Assembly (NCBI GenBank): GCA_036504215.1
Contig: DASXVO010000081.1
Coordinates: forward strand, 62,001 to 126,000
DNA: 64,000 nucleotides
Origin: Vicinamibacterales bacterium
GTDB taxonomy: Bacteria > Acidobacteriota > Vicinamibacteria > Vicinamibacterales > Fen-181
Direction: 5' to 3'
A program made the translations under genes and the position numbers. Under the pieces are notes generated by a model. That model ran no database searches. It had not been told where the DNA came from and worked only from the letters and a program-made list of their open reading frames with translations. This document shows positions 23,400 through 35,126 of this stretch, piece by piece (the first letter of the stretch is position 1; each line of letters begins with the position of its first letter).

Positions 23400-23945
23400 A
23401 TGTCCTTCGTCCGACTGTTCTCGACGCTCGTTGCCGGTCCCCGCGTGACTGAAGCGGTGAGCGATCTCCTCGCGCCACCGTCTGCCGCCAGTGACGAGTT
23501 CGCGATTGCCGGCGAGGAACTGCGGACCATCCTGCGCGATCTGTACGGTGGCCGCTCGCTCCACATCCGTGCCGTCGACGCCGGGTCGACCAATGCCGAG
23601 GAACTCGAACTCACCGCGCTCGGAAACGCCTACTACGACATCGAGCGGTTCGGACTGTCGTTCGTCGCGTCGCCGCGGCACGCCGATATCCTCGTGGTGA
23701 CAGGCCCGGTGGTCCGCAACCTGGAGCGCGCACTTCGCCTGACGTACGACGCGGCCCCACACCCCTGCATCGTCGTCGCGCTCGGGGACGGCGCGTGCAC
23801 GGGCGGGATCTGGGCCGGGTCGTACGCGGTCGTCGGCCCCGTGGATCGCGTGATACCCGTTCACATCAGGATCCCGGGCGATCCGCCGTCGCCCCCCGAG
23901 ATCATTCGAGGTCTCGCCGCCGGCCTGCGGAGCGTCCGATGTTGA
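23400..23945 (+). CDS. NuoB/HycG-like subunit lacking all cluster ligands
   Basis: 181 residues, homologous to the small subunit that carries cluster N2 in complex I and the proximal cluster in group 4 [NiFe] hydrogenases. The fold is recognisable: DAGSTNAEELELTAL, ADILVVTGPV, VALGDGACTGGIW and VIPVHIRIPGDPPSPPE. The four Fe-S cysteines of the family are replaced: GSCNGCE became GSTNAEE (Thr64, Glu67), GDC became GDG (Gly131) and PGCPP became PGDPP (Asp161). It cannot hold the usual [4Fe-4S] cluster. First gene of a six-gene operon; its stop overlaps the next start. Confidence 0.85.
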   Translation: MSFVRLFSTLVAGPRVTEAVSDLLAPPSAASDEFAIAGEELRTILRDLYGGRSLHIRAVDAGSTNAEELELTALGNAYYDIERFGLSFVASPRHADILVVTGPVVRNLERALRLTYDAAPHPCIVVALGDGACTGGIWAGSYAVVGPVDRVIPVHIRIPGDPPSPPEIIRGLAAGLRSVRC

Positions 23946-25939
23946 TCGAGTGGGGCGTTCGCATCGGGCTCCTCGGCGCCCTGGCGGCCTCGCTGGCTGC
24001 TGCGGCGATTGGCCTGGCGGCCCGCGGACCTCGCGCACGCCGTGCGGCGCACGCGTTGATGGCTGCAGGCTCGGTGGCAGGTGGCGCAGCGTCGATCCTC
24101 TTTCTGATCTGGAACCTGCATCCCCTCGCGATCGGCCAATCCCCACTGCTGTTCGGCGCGCCGCTGGTCGTCGATCGCCTCTCGGCGTTCTTCCTGCTGT
24201 TGCTGCACCTCGTGTCGGCGATGACGGCGTGGTTCGCGTCGACGTACGGCGAGGATGAAGCGGCCAAGTACCCGCCGCGCGCCGTCGTCCCGTTGACAGC
24301 CGTGTTCGGCCTCGGCATGCAGGGCGTCCTGCTGTCGAGCGGCGTAGCCAGCTTCCTGCTGTTCTGGGAAGCGATGTCGCTCTCGTCGTTCTTCCTCGTC
24401 ATGGCCGACGGCGAAGAAGAGTCGCGCCATGCTGCGCTCCTCTACCTGGCTGTCGCGCAGTTCGGGGCGGGCGCCTTGATCGTCGGCGCCGGACTCCTGT
24501 CTGGCGGCGACCTCGCCGCCACCTTCGGCTCCCTGCCGTCGAACGTCTCGACGATGACGGCTGGCACCAGCCTGCTCGCGCTGGCACTGGTGATGTTCGC
24601 GTTCACGTCGAAGGCGGGGCTGGCGCCCTTCCATGCCTGGCTGCCCGAGGCGCACCCCCGTGCGCCGAGCCACATTTCGGCGCTGATGTCGGGCGTGATG
24701 CTGAAGGTCGCCATCTACGGGCTGCTGCGGTTCACGTCCGTCTGCTGGCCCGAACTGCCGTCGGGCTGGGGCATCGGCCTGCTGGTCCTGGGCCTCGGCG
24801 GGGCGGGAGTCGCCGTCATCTATGCCAACCTCGCACGGGAGATCAAACGGGTCCTCGCGTGGAGCAGCGTCGAGAACATCGGCCTCATCTTCACGATGTT
24901 CGGTTTCCAACTCGTGCTGCGGCGCACCGGCCACATCGGCCTGGCCGACGCGGTGCAGGCCGCAATGTTCCTGCACATCGCCGCCCACGCGCTGTTCAAG
25001 TCGGGGCTGTTCCTCGGCGCGGGCGCGATCATCCATGCGACCCACACCGCGAAGATCGAGGCACTCGGGGGACTCGCCAACCGGATGCCGTGGTTGTCCG
25101 CCGCGATGCTCGCGCTGTCGCTTGCTGCCGCCGCGCTGCCGCCGTTCGGTGCGTTCGTGGCCGAGTGGCTGCTGCTGCAGTCGGCGGTCGTGTCGCTGTC
25201 GGTGAAGAACACCCTCGTCGCGGTCCTCGGCCTGACGGTCCTGGTTGGCGTCGCGTTCGTCGCTGGCCTCGCCGTGTTCGCGATGGTCCGTCTCTTCGCG
25301 TTCATCTTCCTGGCGGAACCCCGGTCGGCCGCCGCACGGGCGGCGCACGAACCGGCGGTTGCGCTACGGGGCCCGGTCATCGCCCTGTCGGTCGCCGTGC
25401 TCGCGCTCGGCGTGCTGGCGCCCCTTGCGCGGCCGCTCCTGCCAGTCGTCGTCGCGGTCGTTGGCCCCGCCGTCCCTCCGGCCCCGATCGCAGCCGTGCC
25501 GATCGACCTCTCGCTGCCCGTGGCGCTGGGCGCGGCGCTCGCGGTGGGGTTGTGCGGCGCATGGCTGATTCGGCGCGCCCTCGGGGGACCGTCCCGGGTC
25601 AGGCGCTACCACACGTGGGATTGCGGACAGCCGATCGACGCGAGCATGGAATACACGGCCACTGGGTTCTCCGCACCGGTCCGCTTCTTCCTCCGCGACA
25701 TCGTCAGGGCTGAGAAACATCTCGTCTTCACGCCCGTCGCGGCGGCGAATCCCTGGATCCGCGACGGCCAGATGGAGTTCCGCAAGGCCGCTGGCGTCCT
25801 CGAGCGGCTCTACTTTCCGATCGCACGGCTCATCGAGGGCGTTGGCGCCTGGCTGAAGCAGTTGCAGAACGGCGTCATCCAGTTCTACATCGCGCTGATT
25901 CTGGCCACGCTGCTGCTGACGTTGTGGGTGGCGCTATGA
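23939..25939 (+). CDS. HyfB/NuoL-like proton-channel subunit
   Basis: 666 residues, about 16 membrane segments. Antiporter-like module with the ion-path residues in place: Glu144 in LFWEAMSLSS, Lys225 in TSKAGLAPFHAWLPEAHPRAPSHIS, Lys256 in MLKVAIYG and Lys354 in HALFKSGLF. C-terminally, YHTWDCGQPIDASMEYTATGFSAPVRFFL is the HyfB/HycC-specific extension. Start ATG 23939 overlaps the previous gene. The intact channel residues say the complex still moves ions. Confidence 0.92.
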   Translation: MLIEWGVRIGLLGALAASLAAAAIGLAARGPRARRAAHALMAAGSVAGGAASILFLIWNLHPLAIGQSPLLFGAPLVVDRLSAFFLLLLHLVSAMTAWFASTYGEDEAAKYPPRAVVPLTAVFGLGMQGVLLSSGVASFLLFWEAMSLSSFFLVMADGEEESRHAALLYLAVAQFGAGALIVGAGLLSGGDLAATFGSLPSNVSTMTAGTSLLALALVMFAFTSKAGLAPFHAWLPEAHPRAPSHISALMSGVMLKVAIYGLLRFTSVCWPELPSGWGIGLLVLGLGGAGVAVIYANLAREIKRVLAWSSVENIGLIFTMFGFQLVLRRTGHIGLADAVQAAMFLHIAAHALFKSGLFLGAGAIIHATHTAKIEALGGLANRMPWLSAAMLALSLAAAALPPFGAFVAEWLLLQSAVVSLSVKNTLVAVLGLTVLVGVAFVAGLAVFAMVRLFAFIFLAEPRSAAARAAHEPAVALRGPVIALSVAVLALGVLAPLARPLLPVVVAVVGPAVPPAPIAAVPIDLSLPVALGAALAVGLCGAWLIRRALGGPSRVRRYHTWDCGQPIDASMEYTATGFSAPVRFFLRDIVRAEKHLVFTPVAAANPWIRDGQMEFRKAAGVLERLYFPIARLIEGVGAWLKQLQNGVIQFYIALILATLLLTLWVAL

Positions 25940-26877
25940 CGATCGCGCTGACGCTCGTCCAGATCGTGGTGGTCGTGCTGTTCGCGCCGCTCGCCGCCGG
26001 GGTCGTTCGCAAGGTGAAGGCGCTCCTCCAGGGCCGGCGCGGTGCGCCCGTCCTCCTTCCCTACTGGACCATCCTGACGCTGATGCGGAAGGAAGTCGTG
26101 CTCTCGTCGAGCACCTCCTGGGTCTTCCGCGGTGCGCCGTTCGTTGTGCTGGCGACGTCGCTCGTGTCGGCGGCCGTACTCCCGCTCGTCACACGAGGCG
26201 GCGCGGCGGCGCCGCTGTCCCACTTCGTCGTGGTCGGCAGCCTCTGGATGCTCGGGGCCGTGTTCCTCGTCTTCGGAGGTCTCGACTCGGCCGGCGCGTT
26301 CGGCGGCATGGGCGCGAGCCGGGAGATGACGATCTCCGCCTTCCTCGAGCCGGCGGTGCTCACCAGCCTCGCGGCGTTCGCCGTGGCCTCCGGGTCGGTC
26401 ACGGTGGACGGCATGCTGGTGGCGGGTGGGCGCGGCCTGGTGTCGCACCCGTGGCTGCTGCCGGCCGTCGGCGCGCTGGGCCTCGTCGCGCTCGGCGAGA
26501 ACGCCCGCTACCCGGTCGACAACCCGGCGACGCACCTCGAGCTGACGATGGTGCACGAGGCGATGGTGCTGGAGTATTCGGGCCCGTACCTGGCGATGAT
26601 GGAGTTGGCGAGCATGTTGAAGCTGACCATCTTCGCGCTGCTCCTCGCCAACATCCTCGTTCCTGCCGGCCTGATGACCGTCTCGAGCTCGGCGGTCGGG
26701 TTGGCGATCGCTCCGTTCGCGGCGGCGGCCAAACTGGCGGCCGGCATGATCGTGCTCGCCTTCCTGGAGTCGAGCATGGCGAAACTCCGGTTCTACGGGC
26801 TGCCCGAGTACTTCTTCGGCTGCCTGTTCCTCGGGCTGACCAGCCTCGGACTCGGTCTGTTCGCGGGGTTGCTGTGA
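25936..26877 (+). CDS. HyfC/NuoH-like membrane subunit
   Basis: 313 residues, eight membrane segments. RKVKALLQGRRGAPVLLPYWTILTLMRKE is the NuoH/HycD signature loop, followed by FGGMGASREM, ENARYPVDNPATHLELTMVHEAMVLEYSG, with the conserved acidic and Arg residues that in complex I line the route between the quinone cavity and the membrane arm. ATGA overlap with the preceding gene. Confidence 0.92.
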   Translation: MTIALTLVQIVVVVLFAPLAAGVVRKVKALLQGRRGAPVLLPYWTILTLMRKEVVLSSSTSWVFRGAPFVVLATSLVSAAVLPLVTRGGAAAPLSHFVVVGSLWMLGAVFLVFGGLDSAGAFGGMGASREMTISAFLEPAVLTSLAAFAVASGSVTVDGMLVAGGRGLVSHPWLLPAVGALGLVALGENARYPVDNPATHLELTMVHEAMVLEYSGPYLAMMELASMLKLTIFALLLANILVPAGLMTVSSSAVGLAIAPFAAAAKLAAGMIVLAFLESSMAKLRFYGLPEYFFGCLFLGLTSLGLGLFAGLL

Positions 26878-27584
26878 ACATCGATCTGTTTGCGTTCGCT
26901 CCGGCGCCGCCCGACCTCTTGTCGGTCGAGGGCGTGCTCGCGGGCGGCATGCTGCTCGCCGCATTCTTCTCGATGGGCCGCAAGCGGCTGCCGACGTTCC
27001 TGCGCCACTACACCCTGTCGTCTGCCTGCCTGGCCGGCGTCATCGCCTCGCACGCGGTGCGGACGGCGCATCCGGCGGAGTGGGCCGGCGCCGCTGCCAC
27101 GTTGATCGTGAAGGTGGTGATCATCCCGCTGGCGATTCTGGCCACGGCGCGCCGATGCGGCGAATCGATGCGGCTTCGGCCGATTACGCGTCCGGTCGTG
27201 TCGTACGCGCTGTCGGTGGCCGCCGTCGTCGTCGCGTACGTGATGTCGCGCCGGCTGCCGATCGACGTCGGCGGGGGGCCGGGAGGCGGCATCGTCGTGC
27301 CGCTGTGGGGTCTCCTCTTCGTCGCGCTCGCCCTGATTCTCATCGGTTTCCTGATGCTGATCGTGCGGCGCGATCTCTATTCGCAGATCGTCGGCTTTCT
27401 CACCGTGGAGAACGGCATTGCCGCATTCACGGTGGTCGCCCTCGGCGGCGTGCCGTTCCTGATGGAGATGGGGATCTTCGCCGTCATCGGCAGCGGCGTG
27501 CTGCTGATGGCCGTGCTCAGCCAGCAGGTGCACAGCCTCTACCAGTCGCACGACACCGCGACTCTCCGAAATCTGATCGACTGA
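26874..27584 (+). CDS. HyfE-like membrane subunit
   Basis: 236 residues, about seven membrane segments. The C-terminal half is NuoK-like (DLYSQIVGFLTVENGIAAFTVVALGGVPFLMEMG, with membrane Glu residues); the N-terminal half matches HyfE of hydrogenase-4. GTG start at 26874 overlaps the stop of the preceding gene. Confidence 0.88.
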   Translation: MNIDLFAFAPAPPDLLSVEGVLAGGMLLAAFFSMGRKRLPTFLRHYTLSSACLAGVIASHAVRTAHPAEWAGAAATLIVKVVIIPLAILATARRCGESMRLRPITRPVVSYALSVAAVVVAYVMSRRLPIDVGGGPGGGIVVPLWGLLFVALALILIGFLMLIVRRDLYSQIVGFLTVENGIAAFTVVALGGVPFLMEMGIFAVIGSGVLLMAVLSQQVHSLYQSHDTATLRNLID

Positions 27585-27586
27585 TC

Positions 27587-29065
27587 ATGCTGCTCTTCGG
27601 TGTATTGCTCGTTCCGCTCGTTGCCGCCGTCCAGGCCCTCCTCGCACGGGACGGCCGCTCTGCGTCGCGTGGCGCGGTCATCGCCGCGGTCGTCGCGACG
27701 CTTGGCGCCGGAGCGCTGGCCGGTCTCGTATTCCTCAGCGGCGAGCTGTGGTTCGGCGGGTATGGGATGCTCGATCGTTTCAGCGCGCTGATGGTGGTGC
27801 TGATCCAGATCGTCTGGCTCGGCGCCGCGCTCAGCAGCGTTCGGTACATCGGAATCGAGGAGGCATCGGGCATCCTCTCGGTGCGCAAGGTACGCCTCTA
27901 CTACGCGCTGCTTCCGGTCTTCGTGCTCGCGATGCTCGTGACGGTCACGACCGACCACCTGGGAGTGCTGTGGCTCGGCCTCGAAGCGACGACGCTCGCG
28001 ACGACGCCGCTCGTGGCGCTCTACCGGAAGGATGGCGCGATCGAGGCCGCGTGGAAGTACCTGCTGCTCTGCTCGCTCGGGATCAGCGTGAGCCTGCTCG
28101 GTCTGGTCCTGCTCGCGTACGCCGGCGTCGGGGCGGGACTGCCCGTCGATCAGGCCTTCTCACTCGGCGCGCTTCGAGGCCGGGCGGCGGCGCTGGACCC
28201 CCAGGTGGTGCGCTGGGCCTTCGTCTTCCTCTTCGTCGGCATCGGCACGAAGGTCGGCTTCGTGCCGATGCATCCGTGGCTCCCCGATGCCCACAGCCGC
28301 ACGCCGTCGCCGATCTCCGCGTCGCTCTCCGGGGTCCTGTTGAACGTCGCGCTGTACGCCTTGCTGCGGGCCAAGGCCGTCACCGACCTCGCGCTCGGAC
28401 AGGGCGAGTGGACGTCGCGGTTCTTCTGGGCGTTCGGTCTGCTGTCGGTGCTCTTCGCCGCCTTCGTCCTGCTGCACCAGCAGAACTACAAGCGGATGCT
28501 GGCGTACCACAGCGTCGAGCACATGGGCCTGATCTCCTTCGGGCTGGGCATGGGCCCGCTCGGGTCGGCCGGCGCGGTGATGCACATGATCGGGCACACG
28601 CTCGCGAAGAGCGCGCTCTTCTTCTCGGCGGGTGAAATCCTGCTGCGCACGCACACGACGAAGATCGCCAACATCCGCGGGCTGTGGCGCCAGGCGCCCC
28701 GCACCTCGCTGGCCTTTCTGCTCGGGTTCCTCGGGCTGATCGGCGCACCGACGTCAATCATCTTCGCGAGCGAACTCACGTTCCTCGTGGCCGCCGCACG
28801 GCGCAGCCCCGCCTCGGCGGTCGCGATCATCGTCGCGCTGGCGATTGTCGCGGTCGGCGTCCTGCACCACATCTTCTCCATGCTGTTCGGCGGCGACGCG
28901 CACGCGCGGCCGGAGGAGGCACCGCCACCTGAGCGGTTCACGGTGACGCACGCCGTCCTCGCCGTGGAACTGGCGCTGCTGTTCGGCGGCGGGGTGTTCT
29001 TCCTCACGAGACCCGGCTTCGAACTGGCAGCCAGCATCGCCCGTGTCTTCACGGTGAAGCCATGA
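27587..29065 (+). CDS. HyfF/NuoN-like proton-channel subunit
   Basis: 492 residues. Second antiporter-like module of the complex. Ion-path residues present: Glu133 in WLGLEATTLATTPLV, Lys222 in GTKVGFVPMHPWLPDAHSRTPSPIS and Lys341 in HTLAKSALFF. It starts two bases after the previous stop and overlaps the last gene of the operon by four bases. Confidence 0.92.
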   Translation: MLLFGVLLVPLVAAVQALLARDGRSASRGAVIAAVVATLGAGALAGLVFLSGELWFGGYGMLDRFSALMVVLIQIVWLGAALSSVRYIGIEEASGILSVRKVRLYYALLPVFVLAMLVTVTTDHLGVLWLGLEATTLATTPLVALYRKDGAIEAAWKYLLLCSLGISVSLLGLVLLAYAGVGAGLPVDQAFSLGALRGRAAALDPQVVRWAFVFLFVGIGTKVGFVPMHPWLPDAHSRTPSPISASLSGVLLNVALYALLRAKAVTDLALGQGEWTSRFFWAFGLLSVLFAAFVLLHQQNYKRMLAYHSVEHMGLISFGLGMGPLGSAGAVMHMIGHTLAKSALFFSAGEILLRTHTTKIANIRGLWRQAPRTSLAFLLGFLGLIGAPTSIIFASELTFLVAAARRSPASAVAIIVALAIVAVGVLHHIFSMLFGGDAHARPEEAPPPERFTVTHAVLAVELALLFGGGVFFLTRPGFELAASIARVFTVKP

Positions 29066-30642
29066 ACGCCCAGCAGGCCCTGTTGAACACTCCCGGCGTG
29101 ATCGTCCGCGACGACCTCTATGCGTCGAGCGAGGGACGGGTCGTCGCCTACGTCCACCACTCCGTGTTCCAAACCGTCGTCGAGGCGCTTCACCAACAGT
29201 CGGGCCTGCCGCTCGATCTGCTGTTCGCGACGGACAACCGCGCGGCGAATGGCACGTTTGGACTCCATGCCGTGCTCGCGGTCGATGCCAGCCATGAGTG
29301 GATTGAGGTCGTCACCACTCTGCCGGAAACCGATCCTGTCTACGATTCGCTGACACCGACCGTCATGGCGGCCCACTGGTACGAGCGCTACGCGCAGGAC
29401 ATGTTCGGCATCGTCGCGCAGGGACATCCGGATCCACGCCGGCTCGTTCACCACGAGAACATCCCGGCGGGGACGCATCCGCTGCGCAAGGACTTCGGTT
29501 GGGACACGCCGTTGCCTCACGCCGACGAGCCCTACCCGTTGGGGCGGGTGGCTGGCGAGGGCATCTTCCAGATTCCCGTGGGACCGATCCACGCCGGCAT
29601 CATCGAGCCCGGGCACTTCAGGTTCAATGTCGCGGGCGAACGGATCATCACGCTCGAGGGCAAGCTGTTCTTCACCCACAAGGGTGTCGAGAAGCTGCTC
29701 GAAGGGAAGACACCCCCTGAGGCCATGCCGTTCGTCGAGCGCGTGTCTGGCGATTCGGCGGCCTCGCATGCGCTCGCCTTCTGCCAGGCCATCGAATCGG
29801 TCGCCGGCTGCGCGGTGGCCGAACGCGCCCGCCTGATCCGCCTCGCACTCGTCGAAGTCGAACGGTTCACGATGCACTTGCACGACGTGTCCAACATCTG
29901 CGGCATGGGCACCGGGTACACCGTGATGGCGGCCAACGGGTTCCGGATCAAGGAGCGCCTCCAGCGGCTGTCGGCGCGCCTGCTCGGCAACCGGTTCTTC
30001 CGTGGCCTCATCGTGCCAGGTGGTGTCGCACGAGACTTCTCGGACGCCGAGATGGACGACGTCCGCGAGACGCTTGGGGCGGCCTGGAGCGACGCGTCAT
30101 CACTGATCCGGCTCGGTCTCGACTCCGACACGCTCCGCGACCGCCTCGAGACCACGGGGGTGCTGACCCGGGACGCAGCCTGGGCCTACGGCGCCAAGGG
30201 GCTTGCGGCTCGCGCCTCCGGCCTCGATCGCGATGCGCGCCGCGATCATCCGCACGCCGGATACGACCTGTGTTCGCCGACCGTAAGGACGCGCACCGAG
30301 GGCGACGTGTTCGCGCGTGTGATGGTGCGCGTCAGCGAGATGGAGGACTCGGTCGAACTCGTTCGCGCGGCGCTGGGGCGTTGCCGCGGCGGCGCACTCG
30401 GACCGCGCATCGAAGCCTGCGTCGCGTCCCACGGCGAGGCGCTCGGCTGGGCGGAAGGCTGGCGCGGTCAGATCCTCGACTGGATCCGGCTGCGCGACGG
30501 CGTCATCGACCGGGCCGTGATCCGCGACCCGTCGTTCTGCAACTGGCCGCTGTTCGGCGAGATGGGGCCAGGCAACATCGTCCCCGACTTCCCGCTCTGC
30601 AACAAGTCGCTCAACCTGAGCTACTCGGGCACCGACCTGTAG
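29062..30642 (+). CDS. NuoCD/HyfG-like subunit without NiFe ligands
   Basis: 526 residues. N-terminal NuoC part to ~150 (HWYERYAQDMFGIVAQGHPDPRRLVHHENIPAGTHPLRKDF), then the NuoD/hydrogenase large-subunit part. The hydrogenase L1 motif RxCGxC is RVSGDS (Ser229, Ser232), and at the C terminus DPCxxC is replaced by DFPLCNKS, leaving a single Cys513. No [NiFe] site can form. The family with these losses is known as energy-converting-hydrogenase-related (Ehr). No ferredoxin-like (HyfH/A) subunit is in the operon. What drives the complex is unknown. Confidence 0.88.
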   Translation: MNAQQALLNTPGVIVRDDLYASSEGRVVAYVHHSVFQTVVEALHQQSGLPLDLLFATDNRAANGTFGLHAVLAVDASHEWIEVVTTLPETDPVYDSLTPTVMAAHWYERYAQDMFGIVAQGHPDPRRLVHHENIPAGTHPLRKDFGWDTPLPHADEPYPLGRVAGEGIFQIPVGPIHAGIIEPGHFRFNVAGERIITLEGKLFFTHKGVEKLLEGKTPPEAMPFVERVSGDSAASHALAFCQAIESVAGCAVAERARLIRLALVEVERFTMHLHDVSNICGMGTGYTVMAANGFRIKERLQRLSARLLGNRFFRGLIVPGGVARDFSDAEMDDVRETLGAAWSDASSLIRLGLDSDTLRDRLETTGVLTRDAAWAYGAKGLAARASGLDRDARRDHPHAGYDLCSPTVRTRTEGDVFARVMVRVSEMEDSVELVRAALGRCRGGALGPRIEACVASHGEALGWAEGWRGQILDWIRLRDGVIDRAVIRDPSFCNWPLFGEMGPGNIVPDFPLCNKSLNLSYSGTDL

Positions 30643-33192: not shown

Positions 33193-33258
33193 TGCTCCGC
33201 CCCGCAGAAGTTGCGACATCCGATCTGCGCCCGTGTGCGATACTGGTCGAGCCGCAGG

Positions 33259-33984
33259 ATGACGACCATCGCACTCGATCTGCTCGTGTTCGGGCCGCAC
33301 GCCGACGACCTCGAGATCGGCCTCGGCGGAACCATCGCGCGCCACACGGCTGCGGGCTGGCACGTGGGACTGTGTGATCTGACCCGCGGCGAGATGGGCA
33401 GCAACGGTACGCCGGAAGAACGTCTGGCCGAAGCCGAAGCGGCTCGCGCGGTCCTCGGCGCCGACTGGCGAGTCAACCTCGGGTGGCCCGACCGCGGGAT
33501 CACAGGCACAGCGGACCAGGTGGGCGACATCGTCGCCCTCGTTCGGCGGTGGCGTCCGCGAGCGATTGCCATCCCGTTCTGGCAGGACCGTCATCCGGAT
33601 CACGGCGCCGCGAGCCGCGTGCTGACCGAGGCGATCTTCAACGCGCGCCTGCGCCGCTACCCGGCCGAGGGCGATCCCTGGGCACCCGACTGGGTCTGTT
33701 ACTACTTCATCAACGACAGCGGCCCGATCTCGTTTGCGATCGACGTCTCGGCTCAGTACGGGTCGAAGCGCACGGCGCTCGCGTGCTACCGCAGCCAGTT
33801 CCGGCCCGACGCGGACGGGGCCGTCGCCACGCGGCTGAACACGCCCACGTTCTCGCAGTTGATCGAGAGCCGCGACGCCCAGTTCGGGGCGCTGGCGGGC
33901 GTCGCCTTCGCTGAGGGCCTGGTCGTGAAAGAACCGGTCCTGCGCCCGCACCTGTTCAAGAACTGGGCACTGGAGCGACCGTGA
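33259..33984 (+). CDS. bshB1: Bacillithiol biosynthesis deacetylase BshB1
   Basis: 241 residues. Removes acetyl from N-acetylglucosaminyl-malate in bacillithiol synthesis. LmbE-type zinc site: [14 protein letters not shown] (AHPDD motif with His and Asp) and the later PDHGAASRV His. [22 protein letters not shown] and [17 protein letters not shown] are typical of BshB1. Overlaps bshA by four bases (GTGA), which confirms the pathway. bshC is not in the window. Confidence 0.93.
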
Positions 33985-35126
33985 AGATTGCGATGATCTG
34001 TTACGCGTCAGTGGGCGGCAGCGGCATCGTCGCCACCGAACTGGCGAAGTGCCTCGCGAAGCGCGGCCACGAGATCCACGTGGTGAGCCGCGAGCAGCCG
34101 TTCCGTCTCGGCGACGACCAGCCGGGTGTCATCTTCCACCGCGTCGTGACGCCGTCCTATCCGCTGTTCCGCGAGCCGCAGTACGTGCTCTCGCTCTCGA
34201 CGAAGATCGTGGAACTGTCGCGCGCCGTCGACCTCGACATCATCCACGCACACTACGCGATTCCGCACGCGGCCGCCGCGTTTCTCGCGCGCCAGGTGCT
34301 CGCGGGAACGGGCGACGGACACGCGCCGCGCGTCGTCACCACGCTCCACGGCACCGATATCACGCTCGTCGGCAGCGATCCCTCGTATGCGGAGACGATC
34401 GGTTTCTGCATCGACCGATCGGATGGCGTCACCGCCGTGTCGGAGAGTCTGAAGGCCGACACGTATCGCGGCCTGCCGGTGAAGACCGACATCCGCGTCA
34501 TCCCGAACTTCCTCGACTGCTCGATCCACCGCAGGGTCGATGATCCGGACGTTCGCAAACGAATCGGCGCTCCCGACCACGCCATCATCATGCACGTGTC
34601 GAACTTCAGGCCGGTCAAGCGCATCGCTGCCGTAGTCGAGGTCTTCGCGCGGATCCGCCGGTCGGTACCGGCCACGCTCGTGCTCGTCGGCGACGGTCCC
34701 GACCTGCCGCACGGCCTCGCGCTCGCACGGGAACTCGGCGTCGCGCAGGATGTGCGGGCAGTTGGAGAGCAGGGCGACGTGCGCGGCTATCTGTCTGCCG
34801 CGGATCTGTTCCTGCTGCCGTCCGCCACCGAGAGTTTCGGCCTCGCCGCGCTCGAGGCGATGGCGTGCGACGTGCCGGTCATCGCGTCACGCGTGGGCGG
34901 TCTGCCGGAGGTCATCGAGGACGGCGTGAGCGGCTACCTGCGGGATCCGGATGACCTCGACGGGATGGCGTCCTGTGCCGTCGTATTGCTGACAGATCGG
35001 AAGGTGCACGACCGAATCGGCCTGGCCGGCCGGAAGGTCGTCCGCGATCGGTACTGCTCGGACCGAATCGTTCCTCACTATGAGGCCTTCTACAGGGAGA
35101 TCCTGGCTGCGCCGCCGCGCGCGTGA
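33981..35126 (+). CDS. bshA: N-acetylglucosaminyl-malate synthase BshA
   Basis: 381 residues, GT4 glycosyltransferase joining UDP-GlcNAc and L-malate, the first step of bacillithiol synthesis. [32 protein letters not shown] and [19 protein letters not shown] are BshA signatures. The nucleotide-sugar site follows: FRPVKRI, LVGDGPD and the EX7E segment in [25 protein letters not shown] start overlaps the bshB1 stop. Confidence 0.94.

Follow-up and report, generated by a model that had tools for sequence, protein, structure and literature searches.

An Ehr-branch relative of complex I without ligands for its known redox centres, and its possible link to inorganic carbon

What could drive a relative of complex I that has kept its ion channels and lost the residues that hold its redox centres? 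The question is raised by an operon in a 64,000-nucleotide stretch of a contig from a Vicinamibacterales bacterium (the window), for which an earlier note, made from the sequence alone, had left the driving force open. Our inferred candidate is the ion gradient across the membrane, and carbonic anhydrase would be the partner.

The operon and its former metal sites

Six genes on the same strand (positions 23400-30642) encode NuoB-, HyfB/NuoL-, NuoH-, HyfE-, HyfF/NuoN- and NuoCD-like products (Table 1). Pfam/NCBIfam matches were obtained for NuoB, HyfB/NuoL, NuoH, HyfF and NuoC plus NuoD. The HyfB-like protein matched hydrogenase 4 subunit B (2.7e-136, below the cut-off) and FHL subunit 3 (2.5e-45), and the HyfF-like protein matched hydrogenase 4 subunit F (1.7e-110, below the cut-off). 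The HyfE-like protein of the window itself had no Pfam match, and its ortholog in L010 matched Oxidored_q2/NuoK barely above the cut-off. The earlier note had described six overlapping genes; all six are present, but the HyfE and HyfF genes lie 2 nt apart and do not overlap. Its statement that no ferredoxin-like subunit is encoded held for the operon and for the flanking genes scanned, and neither an NADH module (NuoEFG) nor another electron input was found in the operon or its flanks.

Table 1. Genes of the operon, with positions in the window
Product	Length	Positions	Strand	Evidence and key residues
NuoB-like subunit	181 aa	23400..23945	+	PF01058 1.4e-23; T64/E67/G131/D161 at the four [4Fe-4S] cysteine positions
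HyfB/NuoL-like antiporter subunit	666 aa	23939..25939	+	PF00361 1.9e-44; channel residues E144, K225, H350, K354, E409
NuoH-like subunit	313 aa	25936..26877	+	PF00146 1.6e-27; E-channel glutamates E188, E202, E208, E213
HyfE-like subunit (GTG start)	236 aa	26874..27584	+	Position and homology across the clade; NuoK-like C-terminal half, E179, E198
HyfF/NuoN-like antiporter subunit	492 aa	27587..29065	+	PF00361 8e-51; channel residues E133, K222, H333, H337, K341
NuoCD-like subunit	526 aa	29062..30642	+	PF00346 2e-35, PF00329 3.4e-21, PF00374 7.1e-8; S229/S232/S520/G523 at the NiFe cysteine positions

A foreign or misassembled contig was considered and rejected, since the GC content of the operon (0.685) is close to that of the window (0.668) and two other acidobacterial genomes (L007 and L026) carry the operon. 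The two genes downstream of the operon are the same in L007 as in the window. Downstream in the window (33211-35126) lie genes for a PIG-L-type deacetylase and a glycosyltransferase, which resemble the bacillithiol genes BshB and BshA; in L007, genes of these two types lie directly 3' of the operon.

For comparison across genomes, loci were collected by a GTDB genome scan and by searches among Acidobacteriota and Patescibacteria, and removal of duplicates left 71 distinct loci from about 70 genomes, mostly Patescibacteria with a few Acidobacteriota. Alignment of the NuoB-like protein with MbhJ (6cfw), HycG (7z0s) and relatives that retain all four cluster cysteines (CCCC) placed exactly the residues named by the earlier note, Thr, Glu, Gly and Asp, at the four positions. 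The window genome (5.9 Mb, estimated 100% complete) contains five further NuoB-family genes, and the two of them that were aligned (L001 and L002) both have all four cysteines, indicating that the cysteine loss is specific to this operon. An AlphaFold model (pLDDT 88) retained the fold of formate hydrogenlyase, membrane-bound hydrogenase and complex I.

The signatures at positions 64/67/131/161 over the 71 loci were TEGD (33), SEGD (15), TCDD (9), TEGN (4), DCDN (3), DCDD (2) and single cases, one of which comes from a partial sequence. Positions 67 and 131 covaried, Glu occurring with Gly or Cys with Asp (single exception TEDD; shared ancestry was not corrected for), so that one side of the former ligand pair stays acidic. 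The residues that stand in for the cysteines are near-invariant. Close to them, residues such as Asn65, Glu68, Asp130 and Pro162 were invariant across 28 aligned members of the main group, and conservation of the soluble arm ranks among the highest in the complex, with 61 invariant residues out of 181 in NuoB. Conserved cysteines at shifted positions, which could have refuted the earlier note's reading by forming a cluster, were not found as an alternative set in the clade alignments; Cys133 is frequent in the clade, yet absent from many members. A cluster built from shifted cysteines was rejected for want of a conserved set.

In the NuoCD-like protein, whose best solved relative is HycE of formate hydrogenlyase (7z0s, 2.7e-71), alignment to HycE and relatives located the four NiFe ligand positions, and Cys occupies none of them. 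The earlier note had correctly read serines 229 and 232 in place of ligands, but the one C-terminal Cys that it counted occupies no ligand position: cysteines 493 and 513 both lie outside these positions and are unconserved. The pattern S-x-S-G is found at the NiFe ligand positions across the clade.

Could the complex be a redox or metal enzyme after all, its acidic pocket holding a different metal or cofactor, or electrons arriving from a partner encoded at an unlinked locus? Glu67 or Asp131, Asp161, Glu68 and Asp130 are conserved and could be metal ligands, and the pocket is under strong selection. We nonetheless consider this improbable, because there is no cysteine set, the operon holds no ferredoxin-like or flavin gene, the NiFe ligands are absent, and positions 161 (Asp, Asn or Glu) and 64 (Thr, Ser, Asp, Ala or Asn) vary, which is loose for a metal site. 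Loss of the redox sites is well supported by the sequences, and it is very likely that the complex contains no redox centre.

The membrane arm has been retained. The channel Glu and Lys residues of both antiporter modules are present, as had been claimed, and the Glu/Lys/His residues are kept in about 58-71 of 70-71 loci; residue counts over the clade put these residues, the NuoH glutamates and the NuoK-like glutamates at near invariance, with E179 and E198 of the HyfE-like protein retained in 43 of 44. Comparison of the window with its two acidobacterial relatives gave dN/dS values of 0.14-0.38, lowest for NuoB. That the operon is a decaying relic of a hydrogenase-like complex would fit the absence of all known redox ligands, but six intact genes, these dN/dS values and retention of the same residues across several phyla speak against decay, which we reject as extremely improbable. 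Judged from the sequences alone, the FeS and NiFe ligands are absent, the channel residues are intact, and the operon is conserved clade-wide under purifying selection; the proton path and coupling fold are retained and the electron path is gone.

A cysteine-less clade among Ehr relatives

The earlier note had asked if the missing cysteines are a trait common to a clade, and the answer is affirmative. All 71 loci, with at most one of the four cysteines each (none in the window), formed a single clade on the NuoCD tree (SH-aLRT 93), which was built by a quick search without bootstrap. The defining Ehr feature of redox coupling with an FeS cluster in the NuoB-like subunit is thereby unmet. The clade was nested in Ehr relatives that have CCCC but lack the NiFe ligands (SH-aLRT 99), and several of the nearest CCCC relatives, mostly of the window's own phylum, already lacked the NiFe ligands and had the same S-x-S-G. 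This nesting indicates that loss of the NiFe site, a feature of known Ehr complexes too, preceded loss of the proximal cluster, and it supports the earlier proposal of an Ehr-like complex without the proximal cluster as well.

The window, L007 and L026 grouped together (SH-aLRT 100), and the group that encloses them (100) consists otherwise mainly of Patescibacteria. Transfer, in an undetermined direction, may account for the acidobacterial copies. The operon is uncommon in the order to which the window belongs: among 120 genomes, G000, G888 and G892 scored like members, as did possibly a partial copy in G908. Three loci with other labels, L018 (Micavibrio), L040 (Dadabacteria) and L041 (Bacteroidetes), fell inside Patescibacteria groups on the NuoCD tree, and L018 also has the carbonic anhydrase genes of those groups; the three are probably mis-binned contigs, or recent transfers.

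According to one study, the large subunits of CPR Ehr complexes are monophyletic and lack metal-binding cysteines (Jaffe et al. 2020, PMC7304191), and the separate CPR Ehr group of that study is probably the clade found here. In another, Ehr was defined by missing NiFe ligands and redox roles were proposed (Matheus Carnevali et al. 2019). The operon thus shares gene family, branch and the lost NiFe ligands with Ehr, which is described as redox-linked, unlike the complex studied here. The passages located in the two papers contained no mention of NuoB cluster loss or of linkage to ATP synthase or carbonic anhydrase. A literature search returned no report of a cluster-less NuoB clade, but it left subscription papers mostly uncovered, so novelty is unproven. 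What is new is the genomic context of the operon, its proximity to genes for ATP synthase and carbonic anhydrase.

Neighbouring carbonic anhydrase, ATP synthase and SulP genes

A carbonic-anhydrase-like gene adjoined the operon in 32 of the 71 loci, more than half having no such neighbour. We counted 38 of these genes, all within 1.1 kb of one or other end of the operon, versus 0 in 331 kb of farther flank (binomial 3e-12). The counts were made on all six-frame reading frames and with equal flank lengths; shared ancestry was not corrected for, and the profiles were seeded from neighbours, which makes the contrast somewhat favourable.

The adjoining enzymes belong to at least four families that are unrelated or very distant: CsoSCA-like proteins (12 genes; best PF20686 match 5.8e-7; ligand motif retained in 12/12), CA13, a name given here (15 genes; CxD...HxPC, with the full motif in 11/15), Pro_CA_2 tandem proteins (5 genes; PF20393 down to 1.6e-19) and a gamma-class enzyme (3 genes; CcmM 1.3e-32 for L158; catalytic motif retained), along with CxD/HxxC proteins in L029, L032 and L034, which do not reach the cut-off of any Pfam family. 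The best PDB matches of a CA13 model were exclusively beta-carbonic anhydrases, though with low TM-scores. That different folds (beta and gamma) with one activity occupy the same slot points to a functional link.

Several features of these genes and their surroundings were also observed. In L010 (17227-17847), L019 (17239-17832) and L145 (11120-11737), the region downstream of the operon holds a degenerate CA13 copy that lacks the zinc-ligand motif, and an intact copy lies upstream. The Peregrinibacteria proteins of L029 (17305-18420) and L032 (17254-18219), which adjoin the operon, have a twin-arginine-like start and a CxD/E...HxxCGA motif and are possibly exported carbonic anhydrases. A gene for a DUF4349-like membrane protein of about 310-370 aa follows the carbonic anhydrase gene in L191 (4216-5169) and holds the same place in L156-L161 and L193. 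In one subgroup (L164, L168, L171 and L175), a gene for a DedA-like membrane protein (~200 aa, judged by eye) lies just upstream of the NuoB-like gene, and in L190, an operon-less genome, a DedA-like gene comes just after the CsoSCA-like gene.

No carbonic anhydrase gene was found in the flanks of the acidobacterial copies (window, L007 and L026), and the window genome contains no PF00484 or PF00194 enzyme, the gamma class being outside that search. The idea that the CsoSCA-like gene occurs only together with the operon was also considered and failed, as operon-less genomes have this gene elsewhere.

An F1Fo ATP synthase operon lay directly upstream in 30 of the 63 loci with enough upstream sequence, these 30 being from Patescibacteria or unnamed bacterial bins; the acidobacterial copies and most of the second subgroup showed no such linkage. 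In Patescibacteria, linkage of the operon to ATP synthase and carbonic anhydrase genes is thus directly visible in gene order. By the usual Na+ motif of c subunits, Glu followed by Ala counts as non-Na+. The adjoining c subunits have Glu then Ala and appear to be of the H+ type, and a Na+-type ATP synthase beside the operon was rejected since they lack the usual motif.

The slot after atpC was also inspected in genomes of the same order without the operon. It held SulP followed by carbonic anhydrase in L191 and L193, SulP in L203 and L211, and carbonic anhydrase in L192 and L194. Since carbonic anhydrase thus lies beside ATP synthase without the operon, and the CsoSCA-like gene is found in operon-less genomes, its tie may be to the ATP synthase. 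SulP and the operon occurred together in 3 of 131 genomes versus 7.3 expected (one-sided p 0.027, uncorrected for ancestry and incompleteness). SulP proteins transport anions, bicarbonate included; the substrate of these SulPs is undetermined.

The ATP synthase and carbonic anhydrase neighbours suggest that an ion gradient is used for carbon dioxide or bicarbonate and not for electrons. These neighbours bear on two further explanations. The complex could be a redox-free cation/proton antiporter of the Mrp type, its membrane arm swapping Na+ or K+ for H+ beneath a structural or regulatory lid formed by the NuoB/NuoCD arm. Mrp antiporters (6z16, 7qru) have antiporter-type subunits without redox centres, as does the operon; its two such subunits keep all channel residues and resemble Mrp A/D, and with an H+-type ATP synthase next door the complex could draw on a proton gradient to set up one of sodium. 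Against this, Mrp antiporters have no NuoB, NuoH or NuoCD homologues and different small subunits, so that the operon does not meet the definition of an MrpA-G set without these proteins; no MrpE/F/G-type partners are encoded, the conservation of the soluble arm exceeds the needs of a lid, and the carbonic anhydrase and SulP linkage is left unexplained. We regard this explanation as unlikely, though it cannot be dismissed.

A still less probable explanation is an acid-base module in which the ATP synthase as proton pump, carbonic anhydrase and the complex (or SulP) hold cytoplasmic pH in fermenting cells, the complex acting as a proton/bicarbonate leak or exchanger. It accords with the gene order ATP synthase, complex or SulP, carbonic anhydrase, and with carbonic anhydrase adjoining the ATP synthase even without the operon (L192 and L194), but not with the fact that the acidobacterial copies, like most members of the second subgroup, have no ATP synthase link. 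It differs from the explanation that we favour mainly in purpose, so that sequence separates the two poorly.

Relation to known systems and proposed function

The operon does not meet the criteria of group 4 NiFe hydrogenases (Hyf/Hyc/Ech), namely two CxxC motifs in the large subunit, a proximal [4Fe-4S] cluster and a ferredoxin-like subunit, nor those of respiratory complex I, as the operon and its flanks hold no electron-input module and N2 cluster ligands are missing. The mycobacterial Rv0082-Rv0087 locus may be an operon of similar make-up. Cyanobacterial NDH-1MS is redox-driven, retains clusters and quinone chemistry, and has a carbonic anhydrase subunit different from the operon neighbours. 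It is a complex I relative linked with CO2 hydration (PMC6981117). Hydrogenase 4/formate hydrogenlyase (HycG and HycE; 7z0s) shares subunit types and fold with the operon, which lacks its NiFe site, proximal cluster, and ferredoxin-like or formate dehydrogenase subunit.

The working analogy is DAB/DAC (DabA-DabB), in which a NuoL-like membrane subunit and a beta-carbonic anhydrase use the proton-motive force without redox chemistry; in DAB2, which has been studied experimentally, a NuoL-like subunit and a beta-carbonic-anhydrase-like protein are coupled to the gradient (PMC13144422). The operon differs from DAB in encoding a six-subunit complex with NuoB/H/CD/K-like parts, in having carbonic anhydrases of other families beside it, and in keeping the key antiporter ion-pair motifs that DabB2 is said to lack (PMC13144422). 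DabA (PF10070) had no match among the neighbour genes scanned, which did not cover all neighbours.

Our preferred reading, to which as a whole we assign a probability of roughly 0.45, is that the operon encodes a redox-silent Ehr-branch complex coupled to the proton-motive force, which in Patescibacteria serves CO2/bicarbonate with carbonic anhydrase. Such a member of the complex I superfamily would have lost every known redox centre and kept fold and proton path, and would be a membrane machine and not an oxidoreductase. In Patescibacteria, the complex and carbonic anhydrase would most likely act on CO2/bicarbonate, by vectorial CO2 hydration or bicarbonate uptake, and by analogy might work like DAB and NDH-1MS with other parts. 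The pockets that once held the cluster and the NiFe site, where Thr/Ser, Glu or Asp, and Ser are now conserved, would serve to couple the soluble arm to the proton channels. The acidobacterial copy in the window would be the same machine, its partner encoded elsewhere or replaced. That the complex moves ions is probable. We infer, from sequence and gene order, that ions flow and in which direction, that CO2/HCO3- is the substrate, that carbonic anhydrase physically touches the complex and that the acidobacterial copy has the same role; the inorganic-carbon role itself is likewise an inference.

More tentatively, and with doubts outweighing our confidence, a full complex I homologue without redox chemistry would use the proton-motive force for CO2/bicarbonate conversion or transport with exchangeable carbonic anhydrases. 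It would have converged on the DAB way of working and would be widespread in Patescibacteria, which for the most part have no respiratory chain. It has long been asked how redox reactions in one arm of complex I drive the movement of protons at a distance, in the membrane arm, and if the proposal is true, a natural homologue would isolate the coupling machinery, with fold and proton path and no redox centre. It would also add a third route from ion gradient to inorganic carbon besides DAB and NDH-1MS, sited in Patescibacteria, which have small genomes and a poorly known energy metabolism, and would account for the Patescibacteria 'Ehr' genes without catalytic residues.
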